DNA from: Methyloligella sp.
Lineage (GTDB): Bacteria > Pseudomonadota > Alphaproteobacteria > Rhizobiales > HXMU1428-3
Direction of reading: 5' to 3'
NCBI GenBank assembly: GCA_021604645.1
Contig: BQJJ01000013.1
Location: 1 to 64,000 of the forward strand
Length of the DNA stretch: 64,000 bases
The notes below the pieces were generated by a model. The model ran no database searches, was not told the DNA's origin, and saw only the letters and a program-made list of their open reading frames with translations. The stretch's first letter is position 1. Every line of letters starts with the position of its first letter. Shown here in pieces: positions 11,591-57,910 of the stretch. The position numbers were made by a program, and so were the translations under genes.

Positions 11591-11835
11591 CCGAAGAAGG
11601 AGCATTGCCCATCTTTGGGCAATGGGACATGACGCCAGGGGCGTCCGGTGCACAAGATCAACCCGAACAAAGCCTAGCAAGTACGGATAAGCTGATCGTC
11701 AAAAACACCGCCCATCGGAGGGCCCGCTGCTTCGCAGCGGAATAGCCATGAGAGAAAATAGCGCGGTTGCTTGTGGGCAACCTGAAGCGCCACTAAATAG
11801 CACGGTTGCATAGTGGGCAATCTGAAGCGCCACTA
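11591..11835 (+). repeat. Repeat island 1: mosaic of palindromic units between flbD and flhA
   Basis: Reading plus: a unit with GAAGAAGGAGC, then hairpin ATTGCCC/GGGCAAT near 11604-11624. Next comes hairpin GACGCC-agg-GGCGTC near 11631-11645. Then follows a type B unit (11712-11758) with TCGGAGG, perfect hairpin CCGCTGC-ttc-GCAGCGG (11724-11740) and AATAGCCATGAGAGAAAA. Last are two type A units: 11761-11795 (GGTTGC..GCAACC) and 11800-11835 (GGTTGC..GCAATC), both ending TGAAGCGCCACTA. The last copy ends 23 bases before the flhA ATG, so it would lie in its leader if flhA is transcribed from flbD. Confidence 0.8.
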
Positions 11836-30852: not shown

Positions 30853-31114
30853 GAAGAAGAAGTATTGCCAAACTTCGGACTGAGATATTTCGTAGCTATG
30901 ATTTTGATGGCTTCAATTTCAGTTAAAGCCATCTATTAGCCGTAAACAAAAAACGTAGGCCAAATGGCCGTCAGCGCTTAGCCGCGGTTGCAAGTGGGCA
31001 ACCTAAAGCGCCACTAATAACTCTCTGCACCTCGTAGGGCGGCAACTTCAGCAGCGCGGTTGCTAGTGGGCAACCTGAAGCGCCACTGAAAAACAATAGC
31101 CCGTGAGAGAAAAA
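30853..31114 (+). repeat. Repeat island 2: palindromic mosaic between phzF and ilvC
   Basis: Reading plus: GAAGAAGAAGTATTGCC (30853 on) matches the first unit of island 1. Next is a hairpin GATGGCTT...AAAGCCATC (30906-30933) followed by TATTAGCCGTA, a type B unit. A type A copy follows at 30981-31016 (GGTTGC-aagtgg-GCAACC, tail TAAAGCGCCACTA). A second type B head, CCTCGTAGGGCGGCAACTTC (31031 on), is interrupted by a type A copy at 31054-31087. The B tail then resumes as AATAGCCCGTGAGAGAAAA (31095-31113). Confidence 0.8.
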
Positions 31115-40106: not shown

Positions 40107-40425
40107 GCGTGTTGTTGGTGGGCAATCGAAGAGTACATAAGGAGACCGTCAATGCTTAGGGCGGCAGCTTCGCTGCCATCACCCGTTAGAGAAATAAAAA
40201 ACAGCCCTAGAGACACCAAGAAGGAATGGCGCCACTCCGGCGTCAGGACAGCGCAGCGTCAGTGAAGCCCGGCGCAATGCGGATGCTAGTGGGCATCTGA
40301 AGCACAGAAATGCGCCGCCCCTCGGAGGCTCAAGTGCATAGCACTTGAAATAGCCGTGAGAGAGAAAAACTTAACCCGCTGGGTTAAAGTGCGGTTGCCT
40401 TGTGGGCAACCTGAAGCACCAACTA
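40107..40425 (+). repeat. Repeat island 3: largest palindromic mosaic, beside degP
   Basis: Reading plus: a degenerate type A (40107-40138). A type B with hairpin GGCAGC-ttc-GCTGCC (40163-40177) and CCCGTTAGAGAAATAAA. A unit AAGAAGGAATGGCGCC (40219 on). Outer stem GGCGCA (40271-40276)/TGCGCC (40311-40316) enclosing a type A hairpin GGATGC-tagtgg-GCATCT (40281-40298). A type B with TCGGAGG, hairpin TCAAGTGC-ata-GCACTTGA (40330-40348) and AATAGCCGTGAGAGAGAAAA. Hairpin TTAACCC-gct-GGGTTAA (40371-40387). A final type A (40391-40425) ends six bases before the degP stop codon. Confidence 0.8.
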
Positions 40426-40431
40426 AAATTT

Positions 40432-42021
40432 CTAACCTGCAGGGTTAGAAGGTAATGCTACAAAACCAAACTCACCGCGCCCACGCGCGATAAAGAAAAT
40501 GATGTTCTTTTTATTGGTTTTCTTCAAAGATTCAACTTTCTTAACAACCTGATCAGCTGTAGAGACCTGCTCTTGCATCACTTCAACAATCACAAACCCC
40601 GGACGAAGTCCTTTTTCAGCAGCACGGCTATTTGGCGCAACTTTCGTAATCACCACACCTTTGAGTTTAGCATCCAAACGATATTGACGGCGAAGCTCTG
40701 GTGTAATGTTCGAAAGCGTCATACCAAGAACGGCACTCTCAACAGGCTTGTCAGGTTGAGCACGGCCAGCAAGTTCAGGATTATTCTTTTCAGCCGCTTC
40801 AAGGCGAGCAATCTTCACCTTAACAGTGACTTCCTTACCCTGACGTAGCAGCTTAACATCAACCGTTTTCTCAACAGGTGTTAGTGCAACAATCTTTGGA
40901 AGCTCACGTGAAGACTTCACATAATTCCCATCAAATTCTAGAATAATATCACTCGGTACAAACCCAGCCTTTTCGGCAGGCCCACCTTTTGTAACACGAG
41001 AAACCAAAGCACCTTCAGCTTTCGCCATGCCAAAACCTTCGGCAATTTCCGGTGTTACTTTCTGAATAAGAACACCAAGCCAACCGCGGCGCGTTTCACC
41101 ATATTTTTTAAGTTGCGAAACAACATTCACGACCGTATCAGATGGCACAGAGAAACCAATACCAATAGAGCCACCAGATGGAGAAATAATCGCTGTGTTC
41201 ACACCAATAACTTCACCCTTCATATTGAATAGTGGTCCACCAGAGTTACCCTTATTGATCGCCGCATCTGTTTGAATAAATTCATCATACGGGCCTGAGT
41301 TAATGTCTCGGTCTTTAGCTGAAACAATACCAACAGTCACAGTACCGCCAAGGCCAAATGGGTTACCAATCGCCATCACCCAGTCACCAACACGCGCTTC
41401 TGATGATTTCCCAAAAGGCACAGCACTTAATGTCTTTTTAGGAGAAACTTTAAGAAGTGCCAAATCAGTTTTGGCATCAACGCCAAGAACTTTATCAACC
41501 TTCAGTTTTGTACCATCGACAAAATTCACAAAGATTTCGTCGGCGCCTTTAATCACGTGGTTATTCGTAACGATTAAACCACTTGTATCAATAACAAAAC
41601 CTGACCCTAATGAACTAACACGTTGAGCTCGGTTATTTTTCTTATTTTCATCAAAAAAATCTTTGAAGAATTTCTCAAAAGGCAATCCCTTTGGCAATTG
41701 AGGAGGACGGCCCGGTGCCCCTCTTTTATTAAAGGCCGGTTTAACCTTTTGACTTGTAGAAATGTTCACAACTGCATTTTGTAAACTATCAGCTAAATCA
41801 GCTAATGTCCGATCTTGAGTATCCTTAGCATCCGCTCGTGCAATCATCATTGCAGTCAAGAGAAACAGCGTGATCCCAAAAAGAAGTAGTGCATCTCTTA
41901 AATAGGTAGAGAAGCGGGTATCTTTCGTCTGCGCAATTGCAACAGCTCTATTATTTTGTGAAGCACGCATTAAACGAGCTCTTTTTTCTTGTGCTGATAA
42001 GTTTGAACGATTGCGAACCAT
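40432..42021 (-). CDS. degP: Do/DegP family periplasmic serine protease
   Basis: Trypsin-like periplasmic protease and chaperone, about 529 residues. A membrane anchor lies near residues 43-62 (ALLLFGITLFLLTAMMIA). The catalytic triad motifs are IVTNNHVIKGADEI (His), KTDLALLKV (Asp) and TDAAINKGNSGGPLFN (Ser). Two PDZ domains follow (about 320-410 and 430-525). An AGGAG seven bases before the ATG at 42021 fixes the start; upstream non-ATG starts would add 28 unlikely residues. It lies downstream of hflK, hflC and a DUF2065 gene on the same strand, a common alphaproteobacterial arrangement for envelope quality control. Confidence 0.95.
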   Translation of the reverse strand: MVRNRSNLSAQEKRARLMRASQNNRAVAIAQTKDTRFSTYLRDALLLFGITLFLLTAMMIARADAKDTQDRTLADLADSLQNAVVNISTSQKVKPAFNKRGAPGRPPQLPKGLPFEKFFKDFFDENKKNNRAQRVSSLGSGFVIDTSGLIVTNNHVIKGADEIFVNFVDGTKLKVDKVLGVDAKTDLALLKVSPKKTLSAVPFGKSSEARVGDWVMAIGNPFGLGGTVTVGIVSAKDRDINSGPYDEFIQTDAAINKGNSGGPLFNMKGEVIGVNTAIISPSGGSIGIGFSVPSDTVVNVVSQLKKYGETRRGWLGVLIQKVTPEIAEGFGMAKAEGALVSRVTKGGPAEKAGFVPSDIILEFDGNYVKSSRELPKIVALTPVEKTVDVKLLRQGKEVTVKVKIARLEAAEKNNPELAGRAQPDKPVESAVLGMTLSNITPELRRQYRLDAKLKGVVITKVAPNSRAAEKGLRPGFVIVEVMQEQVSTADQVVKKVESLKKTNKKNIIFFIARGRGEFGFVALPSNPAG

Positions 42022-45074: not shown

Positions 45075-46523
45075 CTAGTCTGGAGTATAGCCTATTCTAA
45101 AGCCACCCCAATGCCGTCCATGAACTAAAATAGGCGAGCTAATATCTTTCATAGGGACAAAAACCCCGCCGCCCATATCTCGCTGATAAGTTTGCAACAA
45201 TAAAGGCTCTTGATTAACACTCGCTCTTGTACCTGTTAAATCATTAAAATAGCGGTGATTTCTAGAGTTCGCCATATTCCATACCGGATCATCACCTTGA
45301 GGTTGAGACACTTTCTTTATATTCGTTGGAATATAGGCCGTATCATCGATAGCAGCGCACCAGGCAATACGCTCATCACTTGCAACGATCTCTTCAATCA
45401 ATGGCGAAACTTTAGTGTCACAAAACTCTGTGAACTTCGCTATAAATTGCTCTGGATCTGTATTTGGAACAGATTGATGATCTCTATCAAATAAATCAGC
45501 TTCTGTTAGAACATTTGAAGAAAGTGCATCTTCAAAAAGTTTGGTCACACTCTTAGCTGCTTCAGTTGCTTTATGTATGATTGCAGCTTCAGCTTTATTG
45601 GTCCCGCTCATAACTGAGAGCAAAACCAATTTATCACTTTCATCAGCTACATGCCGCATCGACTGAGAAACATCATTTAATTTTTCACTGGATCCCTGCA
45701 TATTCTCTGCAAGCTGCGCCGAATTTTCAGAAAAGTCATTACATGTTGAATTGACAGTTGCCATTTGTTGATCAATCACACCCGTGGTTAAATCAATCGT
45801 CTCCATGGCCTCAGAAACCTTGCCAAGAATTTCACTAAATGAGCCGGAGCAATCCTGAACTTTTAACGCTGTTTTTGAAGTGTTTTCGCTTGTTTTATTC
45901 AGCAAATCAAAACCCGTTTTAATATCTCCGAGTGTTTCTTCAATTTGCATTGTCGCTTCAGATGTCGAAGACGCAAGAGCTTTCACCTCATTTGCAACAA
46001 CACTAAACCCTTTACCAGCTTCCCCAGCACGGGCAGCCTCAATCGTCGCGTTTAAAGCAAGAAGGTTAGTCTGCTTGGCAATTCCATTAATAACATTCGT
46101 AATGCTACCAACACTTTCAAGAGCGTCATTTAATTCAATTAAACGAGCTTCACTTTCACGAACAGCTGCGATCAATTTCGAAATCTCTTCATTAGTCGAA
46201 ACAACAGTACTCTGAGACGCCTGTATATCTCGAGTTGCCTCAGTTGAAACAGACTTAGCCTGTGAAATATTATCAGAAATTTCTGTTGTCGTATGAGTAA
46301 GGTCCGAAATTTGTTCGACAAAAACTGAGAATTTCTGAACATCTTCTTCTGCCGTTGCTGCAATTGTTTGAACGATATCCGCCGACACCGCAACATCAAG
46401 TCCAACACGGCTCAAATTCTCACCAATTTGATTTAAACTATCCATAACAGACGTGGAGATATCAGTATTTTCACCTCCATCGTTTTCAAACGATGTAACA
46501 AGCTCTTGCGCAACATCAGTCAT
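45075..46523 (-). CDS. Soluble methyl-accepting chemotaxis-type protein 1
   Basis: A 482-residue chemoreceptor with no membrane segment. The signalling hairpin tip is [37 protein letters not shown] (about residues 145-181), flanked by long helices. The C-terminal domain (about 330-482) has [17 protein letters not shown], then [45 protein letters not shown] and HWGGFRIGY. This is a ligand-sensing region common at the C-terminus of alphaproteobacterial soluble receptors. The ATG at 46523 has GGGGGA eight bases upstream. It is a paralogue of the next gene. The ligand is unknown; no chemotaxis kinase gene is nearby. Confidence 0.9.
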
Positions 46524-46909: not shown

Positions 46910-48397
46910 CTAAGGCTTGTATCCAACTCTAAAACCGCCCCAATGCTTTCCTTGAACCATAATCGGTGCGGAGCAATCTTTCATAACAACGAAATTCCCG
47001 CCACCCATGTCACGCAAATATGTCTGTAATAATACATCCTTTGTATTGGTACCAGAACGGCTCCCAGTCTTATCATCAAAGATCCGGCGGTTACGTGAAT
47101 TAGCAGCATTCCACACAGGGTCATCCCCTTGTGGTTGTGAAAACTTCTTATTATGGGTTGGCAAATAAGCCTTATCATCAACAGCCGCACAAAAAGCAAT
47201 ATGATCATTCTTTGTAAGTAGCCGCTCTTGTAACGGTGTTAGAACTTCATCCGTAAATTCAGTAAATTTGGTCATGTACTGAATAGGGTTTGTCCCTGGA
47301 ATTTCTTGGTAATTACGATCAAACAAATCAGAAACTTGTATACGTCCACTTTGAACAGCAGTTTCAAAAATCTGCGAAATTTCTTTGGCAGCATCTTTCG
47401 TATAATTAATAATTTCGGTATCAGAAATAGCCGCATCATGAGTGGCTGCAATCACCACAAGCTCATCACCAGCATCACAAACTTGGCTCATCTTTTTCGA
47501 AACAGAATGAAGCGCTTCATTTGCTTGATCCACATTAGCAGAAACCACATCGCCAGATGTCAGAATACCACTGCAAATATCAATAACATTAGTCATACGC
47601 ATTGAGATTTGATCTGTAGCATCATCCACTTCAGAAAGTGATTGCGAAGAACCGCTTAATAATTCAGTGAACATAGCCGCTTGTTTTTCAACTTCGGTAG
47701 CTGTTGCAGTCGCATCATCACTCTGATGGCTTAATTGTTCGAAACCGTTCTTAATTTCTTCAAGTGTTTCTTCAATTTCAGCTGTAGCCTGAGACGTTGA
47801 ACCAGCCAAAGCTTTCACTTCACTCGCAACAACACTAAAACCTTTGCCAGCTTCACCTGCTCGCGCAGCTTCAATTGTTGCGTTTAAGGCAAGTAAATTC
47901 GTTTGTTTAGCAATACCGTTAATAACACCCGCAATGTTTCCAACACTCTCAAGTGAGGAGCTCATCGTCGTCATCGCAGATTGAATTTTCTCAACAGAAG
48001 AGACCAAACCAGCAATCTTATCGACAGTGGTTGAAACAGTATCTTGTGAGGCCATCATTTCATGATTGGCGCCACGGGCAATTTCACTAGAATGTTGGAT
48101 TTCACGAGCAATTTCATCATTTACTGTGCGTAGTTCTCTTATTTTTTCGATGAAACTTAGGAACACTTCTTTATCAGCGCTCGATCTGTCAGCGATCCCA
48201 TCAATCGTACCGGATGCCTCAGCAATATCCAATCCTAAATGACTAACCCGTGTACTTAAGACATCAAAGGCCTGCTTAACAGCTTCCAATTGAGCCGCAT
48301 CTGCCTGAGCTGCATTTGATTGAGCACCTTGTGTATGCGCCCCTTCATTTGATGCGTCTGTATCAACCGCATCATTCACTAATAATTGCGCACCCAT
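46910..48397 (-). CDS. Soluble methyl-accepting chemotaxis-type protein 2
   Basis: A 495-residue paralogue of the preceding receptor with the same layout and no membrane segment. Its tip sequence matches that of receptor 1 almost exactly ([32 protein letters not shown]). The C-terminal sensor again has [60 protein letters not shown] and [12 protein letters not shown]. The N-terminal 40 residues are Ala/Gln-rich and differ. The ATG at 48397 has GGTGG five bases upstream. Its own terminator indicates a separate transcript. Confidence 0.9.
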
Positions 48398-53130: not shown

Positions 53131-53262
53131 GCGCGGTTGTTGCTTGCGGATGCTAGTAGGCATCTGAAGCACAGAAAAGGCAATCTAAAGCGCAATTAAA
53201 CAAACACGGTTGCTAGTAGGCAATATGAAGGCACATTAAAAAGTGCAACTGAAGCGTTACTA
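53131..53262 (+). repeat. Nested type A palindromic repeats downstream of fumC
   Basis: An outer arm GGTTG (53134-53138) pairs with CAATC (53181-53185). Between them sits a complete type A hairpin GGATGC-tagtag-GCATCT (53148-53165) followed by GAAGCACAG. After the outer arm the tail reads TAAAGCGCAATTA. A second unit (53205-53237) is GGTTGC-tagtag-GCAATA with GAAGGCACATTA. A third partial unit, AGTGCAACTGAAGCGTTACTA, ends near 53262. Confidence 0.78.
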
Positions 53263-53383
53263 AAAAAATCTGGCTCAAATAATAAGGGTATGGAAAATCA
53301 AGCCCAATCACTTATAACTTTGAGCCAGCCCGAACTATTAAACTTGAACCCTAACCCCTCCCCGGAGTTTATAAAAATAAAGA

Positions 53384-53611
53384 ATGCAAGACATCCCAAA
53401 GAAAAGATCTCTTACCTTAAAAGGACACCGCACCTCCATATCACTTGAAGACGCATTTTGGTCCGCCCTCAATGATATTGCCAACAAACAAACCAAATCG
53501 ATTTCTGAATTGGTTGAAATAATTGATGAAAATAGAGGTGAAGCAGGACTATCCAGCACCATTCGCATTTATATTCTTCAATATTATCGAAGTCAGCTAG
53601 CAGCGAGTTAA
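53384..53611 (+). CDS. Ribbon-helix-helix domain protein
   Basis: A 75-residue protein with an RHH_4-type fold: the strand RSLTLKGHRTSISLEDAFW followed by helices ALNDIANKQTKSISELVEII and LSSTIRIYILQYYRSQL. Such small proteins are common in alphaproteobacteria and resemble Arc/MetJ DNA-binding dimers, though many lack a known target. A weak GGAG lies 16 bases before the ATG. The palindromic repeats lie 120 bases upstream and a strong terminator follows. Confidence 0.85.
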   Translation: MQDIPKKRSLTLKGHRTSISLEDAFWSALNDIANKQTKSISELVEIIDENRGEAGLSSTIRIYILQYYRSQLAAS

Positions 53612-53616
53612 AAAAT

Positions 53617-53656
53617 AAACTCCCCTAAATAACGGTTGAGTTATTTAGGGGAGTTT
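53617..53656. terminator. Bidirectional Rho-independent terminator
   Basis: A perfect 17-bp stem, AAACTCCCCTAAATAAC (53617-53633) and GTTATTTAGGGGAGTTT (53640-53656), has a six-base loop. It separates the convergent ribbon-helix-helix and AsmA genes. Confidence 0.95.
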
Positions 53657-53678
53657 GTTGTATCCATAAACAAATAAA

Positions 53679-56600
53679 CTACTCTTGCAACGGCGGCAAA
53701 TCAGTCCGGTTCAAATTATCGAATTTTTCTTGTTCTCTTTTAAGCCGCGCTTTTTCTTCATTTATTCTTTTTAATTCTTCTTCAGCCTGCCGGCGCTCCT
53801 CTGCTAGCCGCCGTGCCTCTTGCTCCAGTCTTACTTTCTCAAGACTGCGCAATTCTCTCTCTTTGTGTTTCAACGTTAAAAACCGCTCAAACTCATTCAC
53901 ATCCATTTGAGAATGAAATCCAGCAACAGATTGCAAATCTCCCCGTATCTTTCTCACAATACCAGGAACTTTTCCAATCGTTTTACGTTCTTCAGGCTGA
54001 ATGCTCCAATTCCCCATCCAGCTTAAATCAACCAACTTCAATTCAGCTTGCAGTCCAATAATCCCAGGACGAATACCAAAGTCTTTTTGACGTAATTTCA
54101 CATCACCATCAAGAAGCTGCAGCCCCAAATCAAGTGATTTAAATTTTAATGGTTTAACGTTCTCAACAACTGAAGCCAAATCAGCTTTCAACTGTCCAGC
54201 ATCCCCATTTTCAGATTGTAAAAATCGTTCCGCCAACTGTCCTAACAAAACCGGGTTAACTTGCCGCAAGTCACCATCACTAATTTTCAAAAAGCCCTCA
54301 CCAATTAAACTAGAGACCAAAGCTCTGGGGCTAGAACCAGCTCCACTTAACGAGAGGTTAAAAGAAAACTCTCCAGTGCCAATGCTTGCTTCTTCAGCTG
54401 CACCAACTTCTTCAAGTCGAGCCTTTTCAAGAGATAAAGTCCCATTTAAACCATAACCTTCACTGCGTTCTCGCAGAATACCTGAGGCATTAAAAACACC
54501 CCCCAGACTTTTACCAGCAATTTTTACAATCTCTATGTGATTAGGGTGAACACGCCACCGCACTTCAGCATCAGATAAACTCAATCGCTCAGAAAGTTGA
54601 AGATCGGATACACGAATGGAAAAATCACCCAACCGGTAAATTTCTTCTTCGTTAGAGGAAGCAGTTTTATCGTTTTTACGGATATAGAATGGGCTATTAG
54701 ACCAAACAGTTTTCAAAGCATTTTCTCTACCATCAGTTTTGTTATCACCTGTCTCCAAATTGGCAACTTGCACCCTTTGTTGTTTTTCTCCATTTGCCGC
54801 CTGTTTTTGCAAAGCTCCAAGCAAAGTCTGCAAATCAAGACGCTCAGTCGCAAGAGCAAAACGATACCGCGGCTGACCATCTTTTTCTTCAAAAAGTCCT
54901 GTCCCGATAACTTGGCGATCACCGATAGCAATCTTCAAATCATTTAATGCAAATCCATTTTGAACTTTAGAAAACTTCCCCCTAGCTCTAAAAGGCTCTT
55001 CTTCATTCTTTGTGTTTAAATGAGCAAGCCCAAACAATGCCAAAACTTCACTCGATTTGTTTGAACTAATAAGAACTTCTCCATCAGAAGTTGGCTCGTT
55101 CTTCTTCAAAGAAAACTGACCGTCATAAGAAGCAGTCATCACATTATTCACTAGCTTTACATGCCCACGAAACCCGTCAGACCCAGTCCCTCTCGCAGTA
55201 AATGTCACTTTTGCTGGACCAAACTTTTTTTTACTTCCATGGCTTTCAATTGAAAACGGTAAGAATTTAGAAAGCAGCAAAGCACCATTTGAACTTTCCA
55301 TTCCCCCAAAAATGGTCATAACGCCTTCTTTTTTCTCATCTCCCTCAAGAGGTATAAATACAGAAAAAGCCGTATCACTCCCCCCCATCTGGCCATCAAA
55401 TCGATAATGGCTATATTCAGAAGACGTCTCACGACGCACCCCAAACCTTAAGGGATAGAAATTCTCACCAACTACATTTGAAATCTTGTAAGCCTTGTCT
55501 AAACCAGAAATCCCAACAAGTTCCTTCAGCGCTGTTTCATTAAGAACCTCAAGAAAGAACTTATCTTCTCCAGCTTTATCACCAGTCCCATCAGCTCGCC
55601 CATTTTCATAAACTAACTTCAACCCGCCTTCGCTAACACCGGATAAAGTTTCAACAAAAGAACCAGCCGCGTGATCACGCCAAACAAGCCGTACATCTTT
55701 CTGCACACTGTCACTAAATATAACTTTTTGAGCAGATAGCTCGATCGTCGTTTGGAGAAAAGCACCAGTATCATTTTTAGATGCTTGTGATGTCTGGCTT
55801 TTAAAAAATTGAGAAAATTTATCTTCAAAATCTTTCAATCCAATCTGTTCACCTAAAACATCTTCAATTCTCAAAGGTCCAGATCGCAGAGAAAGTTTCA
55901 TTTCAGCTGCTCTAGCGCTAGTGTCTTTCGAGACTTTTCCTTTTTTATAAGACAAATCTCCCCGCAAAGAAGAGCGCCCCAAAGTGCCTTGCAAGCTATT
56001 TAAGAAAAAACTATCCCCTTCAGAAACAATATTACCCGAGAGCATATATTTTCCACGCCCAAACTTGTTTTCTCCCCCTGTGTAAGAATGAGTGTAAGAA
56101 GGAACAGCCCAGCGCATAAATTCCTGAAACTGCAACCCTCTCAAATAAAGAAAACCATTAAAAAATGCCCCGTTCTCTTTTTCAGTAAAATTACCAGAAA
56201 CACTCATCCGGCTACTGCCAGCCATACGGCCTGTCAAATCTTCAACACGAATCTGACCATCACGGCCTTTCACCTTAAGTGAAAAATCTCGCACATCTCC
56301 TTGGCCCAAATAAATCTGCGCAACTTTCGCTGTAAAGTCGATACGTTCAAAAAACTTAGCCTGTGACAGAAGCAAATCATTTAACTTGGATAAAGCAGCG
56401 CCTGGTGCAACATAAAGAGAGGAACTCAATTGTGATGTTGGATCATCAGAAGTTGAACCAGCCAGCGCTGAGTTTAGATCAATCACCTGACCATTCGCAG
56501 TCCCCATTAAGGCTAACTCATCCCTCCAGTTAATCTCCAGCTCACCACGCACAGTCTGCGGCCGGGCCAAACTCCCAGTACGAATTAAAATATCAGTTAA

Positions 56601-57656
56601 CTTCGCTTGAGTAGAAAGAACATGAAGTTTAGAAGTGAAAAAAACCTGATCACCCTTCACATCAGCACCAGGCAATTCAGTTTTACTTAGTGCCTTTTTA
56701 TCTGAGCCAACATCTCTCGACTCAACCTTTGCCTTTATAATTGGAGGGGCAGCTCGCCCAATACGACCTAAACCTGCTTTCAAATCTCCCTTGGCAAACC
56801 AGACATCACCTTTAGCACCAACCTGTCCGTCAAACTCAATTTGCCGATCAGATTTAGGCGTCGTCACTTTTCCCTGCACAGGAAAAACCGCTTGGCTTAC
56901 CTTTTGTTTGCCATCAGAATTTTTGTTTAATTCTCCAACCGCCAATCGGATGAAATGAGGCGTATCTTGCGTTAGATATTTACCATTAAAATAAAACGGG
57001 CCCTTCAAAGTAATAGCAGAAAGAACACCATCTATATTTTTCATTTCAAAAGAACGAAGCTTAGCACTCCCACTTGTTTTAGCTCGCTTCTTAACACTAG
57101 AGCGAACAACCGATTGCAACTGAAGAGAGCCATTTTTAATCTTAACATTACGAAGAGAAATCAAATTAGGACTAAGCTGAAAACCAGAAAGTGCCGCTTC
57201 TTGAACGGCCACTTCTTCTTGAGCTCCTTTTGAGCGCCCCTTCCTCTTAGAAGCTTTCTGCTGCGCACCTTTCTGGCCCACATCAAAAGAAGGACGTCCA
57301 TTCTGATCAAATTGTAATAATAATTTCGGACTATCAAGTGTCACAGTGCTTGCCTCAACCACCCCCTTCAATAAAGGAGGCACAGCAACCCAAAGCGTCA
57401 GCTCTTTAACATCAAGAACCGGCTTTCCATTTTTTCCACTTTCACCAATGCGAATATTTTCCGCCCGCACATAAGGCGCTGGTAGCAAGCGGACATTTAA
57501 CCCACCATCAAGCTCAACCTTGCTTCCCATAATTTCAGAAAGACGCACCTCAAAGTCAGTGCGATAATCATCCCAGTTAATCAGCAAGGGAACTGTAAAC
57601 AGAGCGGTTAAGACCAAAATCATAAAGGCTGCTATTGCAGTGAGTAGATTATTCAA
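53679..57656 (-). CDS. Large AsmA family protein
   Basis: About 1325 residues. One N-terminal membrane helix (AIAAFMILVLTALFTVPLLI) is followed by the AsmA entry motif INWDDYRTDFEVRLSEIMGSKVELDGGLNVRLLPAPYVRAENI. The C-terminal AsmA-like domain (about 1080-1250) has ASGILRERSEGYGLNGTLSLEKARLEEVG and GEFSFNLSLSGAGSSPRALVSSLIGEGFLKISDGDLRQVNPVLLG. A charged coiled-coil ends the protein. AsmA-like proteins form bridge-like periplasmic conduits thought to move phospholipids to the outer membrane. No ATG fits: the TTG at 57656 has AAGGA at eight bases and is chosen over a TTG at 57695 without a ribosome site. Confidence 0.88.
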   Translation of the reverse strand: MNNLLTAIAAFMILVLTALFTVPLLINWDDYRTDFEVRLSEIMGSKVELDGGLNVRLLPAPYVRAENIRIGESGKNGKPVLDVKELTLWVAVPPLLKGVVEASTVTLDSPKLLLQFDQNGRPSFDVGQKGAQQKASKRKGRSKGAQEEVAVQEAALSGFQLSPNLISLRNVKIKNGSLQLQSVVRSSVKKRAKTSGSAKLRSFEMKNIDGVLSAITLKGPFYFNGKYLTQDTPHFIRLAVGELNKNSDGKQKVSQAVFPVQGKVTTPKSDRQIEFDGQVGAKGDVWFAKGDLKAGLGRIGRAAPPIIKAKVESRDVGSDKKALSKTELPGADVKGDQVFFTSKLHVLSTQAKLTDILIRTGSLARPQTVRGELEINWRDELALMGTANGQVIDLNSALAGSTSDDPTSQLSSSLYVAPGAALSKLNDLLLSQAKFFERIDFTAKVAQIYLGQGDVRDFSLKVKGRDGQIRVEDLTGRMAGSSRMSVSGNFTEKENGAFFNGFLYLRGLQFQEFMRWAVPSYTHSYTGGENKFGRGKYMLSGNIVSEGDSFFLNSLQGTLGRSSLRGDLSYKKGKVSKDTSARAAEMKLSLRSGPLRIEDVLGEQIGLKDFEDKFSQFFKSQTSQASKNDTGAFLQTTIELSAQKVIFSDSVQKDVRLVWRDHAAGSFVETLSGVSEGGLKLVYENGRADGTGDKAGEDKFFLEVLNETALKELVGISGLDKAYKISNVVGENFYPLRFGVRRETSSEYSHYRFDGQMGGSDTAFSVFIPLEGDEKKEGVMTIFGGMESSNGALLLSKFLPFSIESHGSKKKFGPAKVTFTARGTGSDGFRGHVKLVNNVMTASYDGQFSLKKNEPTSDGEVLISSNKSSEVLALFGLAHLNTKNEEEPFRARGKFSKVQNGFALNDLKIAIGDRQVIGTGLFEEKDGQPRYRFALATERLDLQTLLGALQKQAANGEKQQRVQVANLETGDNKTDGRENALKTVWSNSPFYIRKNDKTASSNEEEIYRLGDFSIRVSDLQLSERLSLSDAEVRWRVHPNHIEIVKIAGKSLGGVFNASGILRERSEGYGLNGTLSLEKARLEEVGAAEEASIGTGEFSFNLSLSGAGSSPRALVSSLIGEGFLKISDGDLRQVNPVLLGQLAERFLQSENGDAGQLKADLASVVENVKPLKFKSLDLGLQLLDGDVKLRQKDFGIRPGIIGLQAELKLVDLSWMGNWSIQPEERKTIGKVPGIVRKIRGDLQSVAGFHSQMDVNEFERFLTLKHKERELRSLEKVRLEQEARRLAEERRQAEEELKRINEEKARLKREQEKFDNLNRTDLPPLQE

Positions 57657-57810
57657 GGCACTGTTCCTTAAAACCGACAGGTACGTATCAGGCAATAACT
57701 AAAAAACACATAAATTAAAAATAACATTCAATTGAGCATAAAACGAACTGAAACCATCAACAATATTCCAATCCATATAAATTTCTGCATTAATAATAAA
57801 CGCGACCCGT

Positions 57811-57910
57811 CGGTTGCTTCTTGCGGATGCCTGATGGGCATCTGAAGTCAATCTTGCGGATGCCAAGTGGGCATCTGAAGCAAAAAAAAGCAACCTGAAG
57901 GCACACTAAG
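57811..57910 (+). repeat. Type A repeat with two further units nested inside its loop
   Basis: The outer arm GGTTGC (57812-57817) pairs with GCAACC (57890-57895), followed by the usual tail TGAAGGCACACTAA. Inside lie two tandem units, 57821-57848 (GGATGC-ctgatg-GGCATCTGAAG) and 57854-57880 (GGATGC-caagtg-GGCATCTGAAG). The element ends about 100 bases before the clcA start. Confidence 0.8.

Follow-up and report, generated by a model that had tools for sequence, protein, structure and literature searches.

Hairpin repeats in the loops of other hairpin repeats in a Methyloligella genome and its sister species

The 64,000-nt window analysed here is contig C13 (BQJJ01000013.1, positions 1 to 64,000) of a Methyloligella sp. 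genome of 3.57 Mb in 27 contigs, which carries an alpha-type transfer-messenger RNA, as befits an alphaproteobacterial host. The genome holds hundreds of hairpin repeats of 35-45 letters, here called units A, B and C, along with a somewhat longer unit D and a four-hairpin repeat named M. In the window, several of these units lie inside the hairpins of other units or of M. Inner units sit in hairpin loops and are present or absent exactly at the loop between sister species, which supports the proposal of the initial annotation that they are separate additions to their hosts.

Nests and repeats in the window

By direct reading, the nests at 57811, 53134 and 40271 contain what the initial annotation described. 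The outer stem at 40271 encloses a B unit as stated, and its arms turn out to be hairpin 3 of a larger M. At 31031, where a type B unit split by a type A unit had been described, the inner A unit and the outer GGGC/GCCC arms are present, but the inner 3' arm of the host is lost, and the host is a truncated piece of M whose hairpin 4 holds the A unit. Single-strand DNA folds of the four window nests gave z = -4.2, -2.0, -1.8 and -1.9.

The A, B and C units are hairpins of ~42 bp (~35-45 nt) classed by their stem, while D is ~52 bp long. They are built as a bulged hairpin, in which the inner stem (GGTTGC/GCAACC in A, GGATGC/GCATC in B, GGTTTC/GAAACC in C) is enclosed by a ~4-bp outer stem that varies, with a loop of ~6 nt (e.g., TAGTGG), a TGAA bulge on the 3' side and a tail reading CACTAA or CACAGAAAA. 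Of the four outer-stem pairs, three are altered on both sides, and the covariation score of the units is 0.345 vs 0.084 after shuffling. With at least 150 copies in this genome and 99 of 109 strict units in intergenic positions, the units are short, high-copy, mostly intergenic palindromes, as expected of repetitive extragenic palindromes (REPs). Within the 8 nt that precede the outer stem on its 5' side, a GTAG or CGTC tag was found in none of 170 units, and its complement on the 3' side in one of 170. Neighbouring units within 200 bp share their orientation in 48 cases and oppose each other in four, thus the inverted head-to-head or tail-to-tail dimers of REPs do not predominate.

The main host, M, is a repeat of ~115 bp that reads, in order, GAAGAAGGAG, hairpin 1, GGACATG, hairpin 2, hairpin 3 (CGGYGC/GCRCCG), CCCCTCGGAGG, hairpin 4 with an AATA bulge, and CCGTGAGAGA. 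Compensatory changes occur in 17 of its 29 predicted pairs, and a comparison with Rfam 15, loose thresholds included, gave no relevant match. M is known from other families of the order, too; in a genome of one of them (G032) all its stems differ in sequence while topology and joints are kept, and the copies form tandem arrays with a period of ~137 bp (L362, 1501-1617; L361). By itself, M may represent a novel structure at the RNA or DNA level. A plasmid vector for M was rejected, as no match to M was obtained. The strict unit pattern had no match in viral contigs, and the at least 120 matches of a loose M pattern there are probably pattern chance.

Table 1. Hairpin units, M elements and their nests in the window
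Feature	Position	Strand	Basis or remark
Outer A unit, GGTTGC ... GCAACCTGAAGGCACACTAA, interrupted by two inner units	57812..57909	+	Direct reading; arms GGTTGC (57812-57817) and GCAACCTGAAG (from 57890) around two B units
First inner B unit, loop of the 57812 host	57821..57851	+	
Second inner B unit, loop of the 57812 host	57854..57889	+	
Outer A unit, GCGCGGTTG ... GGCAATCTAAAGCGC, interrupted by a single inner unit	53131..53199	+	Shared with sister species G002, absent in third species G006
Inner B unit with CACAGAAAA tail, in the 53131 host	53142..53178	+	
Complete M, host of the 40271 nest	40216..40364	+	Model R2, 87 bits, E 2e-22
B unit, loop of M hairpin 3	40277..40310	+	Arms 40270-40276 (CGGCGCA) and 40311-40317 (TGCGCCG)
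M 3' part with interrupted hairpin 4	31028..31110	+	Direct reading; other M copies have a similarly interrupted hairpin 4
A unit at hairpin 4 of the truncated M	31054..31093	+	
Second complete M in the window	11592..11756	+	Model R2, 79 bits, E 4e-20; absent from the initial annotation
Hairpin 2 of the 11592 M, empty	11631..11645	+	This loop holds an A unit in G002
D unit in hairpin 3 of the 11592 M	11652..11705	+	Absent from the initial annotation
Plain A unit, comparison case	11758..11800	+	

Apart from these repeats, the window contains a 215-bp direct repeat with 77% identity (45907-46121 and 47739-47953) inside two nearby minus-strand open reading frames, probably paralogous genes.

Position of inner units and their alleles in sister species

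To set a chance expectation, the right flanks of units were permuted. Among 209 strict units of two genomes, complementary arms enclosed a unit 15 times at a score of at least 9, vs 2.6 after permutation, and eight times at a score of at least 10, vs 1.15. These strict counts are preferred because mismatch-tolerant stem tests carry a higher background (18 vs 4.3 at a score of at least 9.5). Over ~1.28 Mb of this genome, 16 units lay between both arms of another unit, compared with 4.0 in permuted data; the inner members of these nests include B, A and C units and the outer stems of their hosts differ, which argues against a single composite that was copied.

The survey of M, covering this genome and its sister species G002, gave 45 recognised inserts in 39 copies. 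About 32 occupy intact loops of hairpin 1, 2, 3 or 4 and ~7 lie in a hairpin 4 that lacks one arm; three are at a CCTC/GGAGG mini-palindrome, ~3 replace a hairpin, and none of the 45 interrupts the invariant joints of M. Inserted D units were found in hairpin 3 every time. On the assumption that loops make up 20% of M, their share of 32 among the 45 inserts corresponds to p ~ 2e-13, an approximate value as the copies are partly non-independent, and a much reduced set (14 of 24) gives p ~ 4e-5, likewise approximate. Nesting reaches a depth of up to three levels; in an M of G002 (g2c3 158855), hairpins 2 and 4 each hold units and hairpin 3 a D unit, which itself encloses a C-like unit.

Sister genomes provide the alleles. 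The main comparison genome, that of G002, is collinear with this genome and has 91% nucleotide identity to it over ~728 kb in common, and the third species, G006, was used at the window loci; the compared stretches of G007 and G004 contain no strict units. At one locus, an intact B hairpin (GATGC-TATGTGG-GCATC) lies inside an A loop here, and in G002 the loop of this B holds a 37-nt C unit (GGGCCGGTTTCTAGTGGGAAACCGAAGGCCC...), with a left flank that matches over 60 nt and a right flank that nearly matches. A D unit in hairpin 3 of M here corresponds to GGCGC-GA-GCGCC in the G002 ortholog, and in the opposite direction a B unit occupies M hairpin 3 in G002 where the loop is empty here, within flanks that are ~95% identical. 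For the empty hairpin 2 at 11631-11645, which holds the A unit in G002, the left half of M also differs. The loop filled at 40277 is empty in G002, where hairpin 2 is changed too, and the same loop holds an A-type unit in G006.

In the sister-strain comparison that the initial annotation had proposed, empty host loops thus occur at some loci, such as the host of the C-in-B nest and M hairpin 3. No outer-only allele was found of the nests at 53131 and 57811, both of which have an A unit as host; the outer repeat is missing from G006 as well. At 57811, two inner B copies here correspond to four in G002, with no repeat at the locus in G006, and most remaining unit differences from G002 are tandem gains or losses. 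Replication slippage, one of the origins that had been suggested, is thus visible as a change in tandem copy number, but not as the origin of new nests.

These alleles contradict the view that long palindromes or structured RNAs diverged gradually and the nests are only apparent; for long palindromes, this view was given with the initial annotation as what would refute it. The strong covariation in units and in M, and the conservation of M topology across families of the order despite different stem sequences, speak for such divergence. However, whole units are present or absent in loops between genomes that are 91% identical (e.g., C in B), which refutes this view for the polymorphic nests, and orientation tracks the contig strand, not transcription. 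We consider gradual divergence highly improbable.

A different possibility does without transposition: rare template switching at hairpins would have produced a few nested composites, which gene conversion, duplication and tandem slippage then carried to other homologous repeats. Within 40218-40317, hairpins 2 and 3 changed together relative to G002 while hairpins 1 and 4 match, and since the 40277 nest comes with a hairpin 2 unlike that of the G002 ortholog, short-tract conversion between M copies can also move a nested hairpin. The mostly tandem nature of the unit differences points in the same direction, as does a nested hairpin 1 found in both orientations inside M. The matching flanks and intact empty loops of the C-in-B and D-in-hairpin-3 alleles are left unexplained by conversion, and the inner units and host stems are diverse. 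We regard this explanation as rather unlikely.

The interior of that nested hairpin 1 is the same at 40825 (+) in the C1 stretch of G002, at 183443 (-) in contig C1 of this genome and at 234424 (-) in the C3 stretch of G002, which suggests an inversion between the hairpin arms. We also noticed a further palindromic repeat, with a hairpin CCTAAAAGTGG...TTTTAGG and ends like TAGAGC...GCTCTA, of which some copies carry A or B units. This repeat type is itself present or absent between the two species (contig C4 reverse, 166630, and the reversed stretch of contig C1, 14319, in this genome, with their G002 orthologs).

Strand, distribution and proposed mechanism

The units follow a single strand on each contig: 18 of 18 units on C13, and 29 of 29 units with 9 of 9 M on C4. 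Over 490 kb of G002, 59 of 61 units and 14 of 14 M share one strand, and with contigs oriented the same holds for 163 of 170 units across all stretches of this genome. Among plus-strand units, 34 lie between two plus-strand genes, 24 between two minus-strand genes, 26 between convergent and 11 between divergent genes. Unit strand is thus independent of gene direction, and this speaks against a function linked to transcription. Units mostly read along the C-rich strand where the GC skew is clear. A strand rule that holds regardless of gene direction points to an involvement of replication and of single-stranded DNA at forks.

Across eight genomes of the genus, including this one, at least 130 units occur in five, 44 and 38 in two, and three in G001, while M reaches at least 130 copies in five and 22-47 in three; the two abundances vary independently. 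A Y1_Tnp domain (PF01797), the mark of REP-associated tyrosine transposases (RAYTs), was found in this genome alone among the eight, though units are abundant in most, and a RAYT was rejected as the mover. Reverse transcriptase (PF00078), absent from this genome and from G002, and TnpB, absent from all eight, were rejected as well. The two Y1/RAYT-like genes (L009 and L010; C1:11499-15370) lie 3.5 kb apart among small open reading frames, without flanking A or B units, and the nearest strict unit in C1:1-20000 is ~3 kb away.

The presence of these two genes on contig C1 would allow a Y1 transposition as in classical REPs, driven by them or by lost relatives. HUH endonuclease chemistry fits the strand bias and the folded hairpins, and the insertion of REPs into palindromes has been described (PMC3733652). 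Nevertheless, Y1_Tnp is missing from the seven other genomes of the genus, most of which carry at least 130 units, the GTAG/CGTC tag is missing, and the Y1 genes are distant from strict units, so that a RAYT origin appears very unlikely.

The explanation that we consider probable is that the nests built up as small non-autonomous hairpins (A/B/C and D) inserted into the loops of hairpins already present in the same community. A unit would travel as folded single-stranded DNA off one strand at the replication fork and join where a hairpin of that strand leaves its loop unpaired. Tandem slippage would afterwards multiply inner units, while whole hairpins would be exchanged between M copies by short-tract conversion. 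The joining activity could be an enzyme not yet recognised or host fork repair, rather than a shared RAYT, reverse transcriptase or TnpB. On a more tentative note, less than evenly supported, the units may represent an enzyme-orphan bacterial mobile hairpin of ~40 nt that targets single-stranded hairpin loops at the fork and so builds recursive hairpins, with M, a new order-wide structured repeat, as its main host.

Several points weigh against insertion into loops. The two species differ at only ~5 loop events, and at two of these, 11631 and 40277, the neighbouring M sequence differs as well, fitting conversion. Each allele is either a gain or a precise loss, mostly undecided; either needs an event exactly at the loop. 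Inserts were placed within M by eye, and any insert that destroyed the search anchors would have escaped detection. No nest was recognised in the loop of an ordinary terminator, so that insertion may be aimed at these repeats and not at hairpins in general. Among RAYTs, reverse transcriptase and TnpB, no mobilising enzyme was found.

How palindromic repeats spread without a transposase, in organelles and bacteria alike, is a long-standing question. Single-unit differences at exact loops between sister species make target rule, strand and ancestral state directly readable, and the enzyme, if any, could be sought among genes common to the carriers. Loop targeting, if real, would offer a natural route for placing DNA into structured single-stranded DNA.

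Relation to known palindromic repeats

REP families are tagged by GTAG or CGTC, and some of them, including GTAG-23 of T. roseum and GTAG-15 of A. variabilis, sit within palindromes (PMC3733652). The units described here resemble REPs as palindromes of 20-40 bp with hundreds of intergenic copies and complementary stem variants, and in that some REP families lie within other palindromes. They differ in the missing tag, in same-orientation neighbours, in the lack of a RAYT in most carriers, and in having several nesting levels and empty-loop alleles. Unlike in RAYT/REPtron systems, most carriers have no cognate Y1 and the Y1 genes are not flanked by units.

In the organelle genomes of Volvox carteri, short palindromes inserted in palindromes form larger composite repeats (PMC2670323), also with no identified enzyme. 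Those are AT-rich units of different sequence in algal organelle DNA, whereas the present units lie in a bacterial chromosome, follow a strand rule and have empty-loop alleles in a sister species. The GC clusters of yeast mitochondrial DNA (GC42) are likewise mobile palindromes (~42 nt) without an enzyme of their own, with a conserved stem, sporadic presence and units that merge and shuffle, as described in the passages on GC42 in PMC4478555; these passages do not mention loop-targeted nesting, and the sequence is unrelated.

Elements of the IS200/IS605 family (IS608, ISDra2) insert with a strand bias, from a folded single-stranded substrate and with the lagging-strand template as target (PMC6006769). 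The strand bias and folded hairpins of the units are similar, but most carriers here have no Y1 transposase, and TnpB is lacking. The target of IS200/IS605 is a short linear motif, in contrast to the hairpin loop here. Nested palindromes were thus already known from organelles and a few REP families, while what is new here, besides the lack of a GTAG/CGTC tag and of a shared transposase, is the deep nesting and the loop-exact empty alleles.
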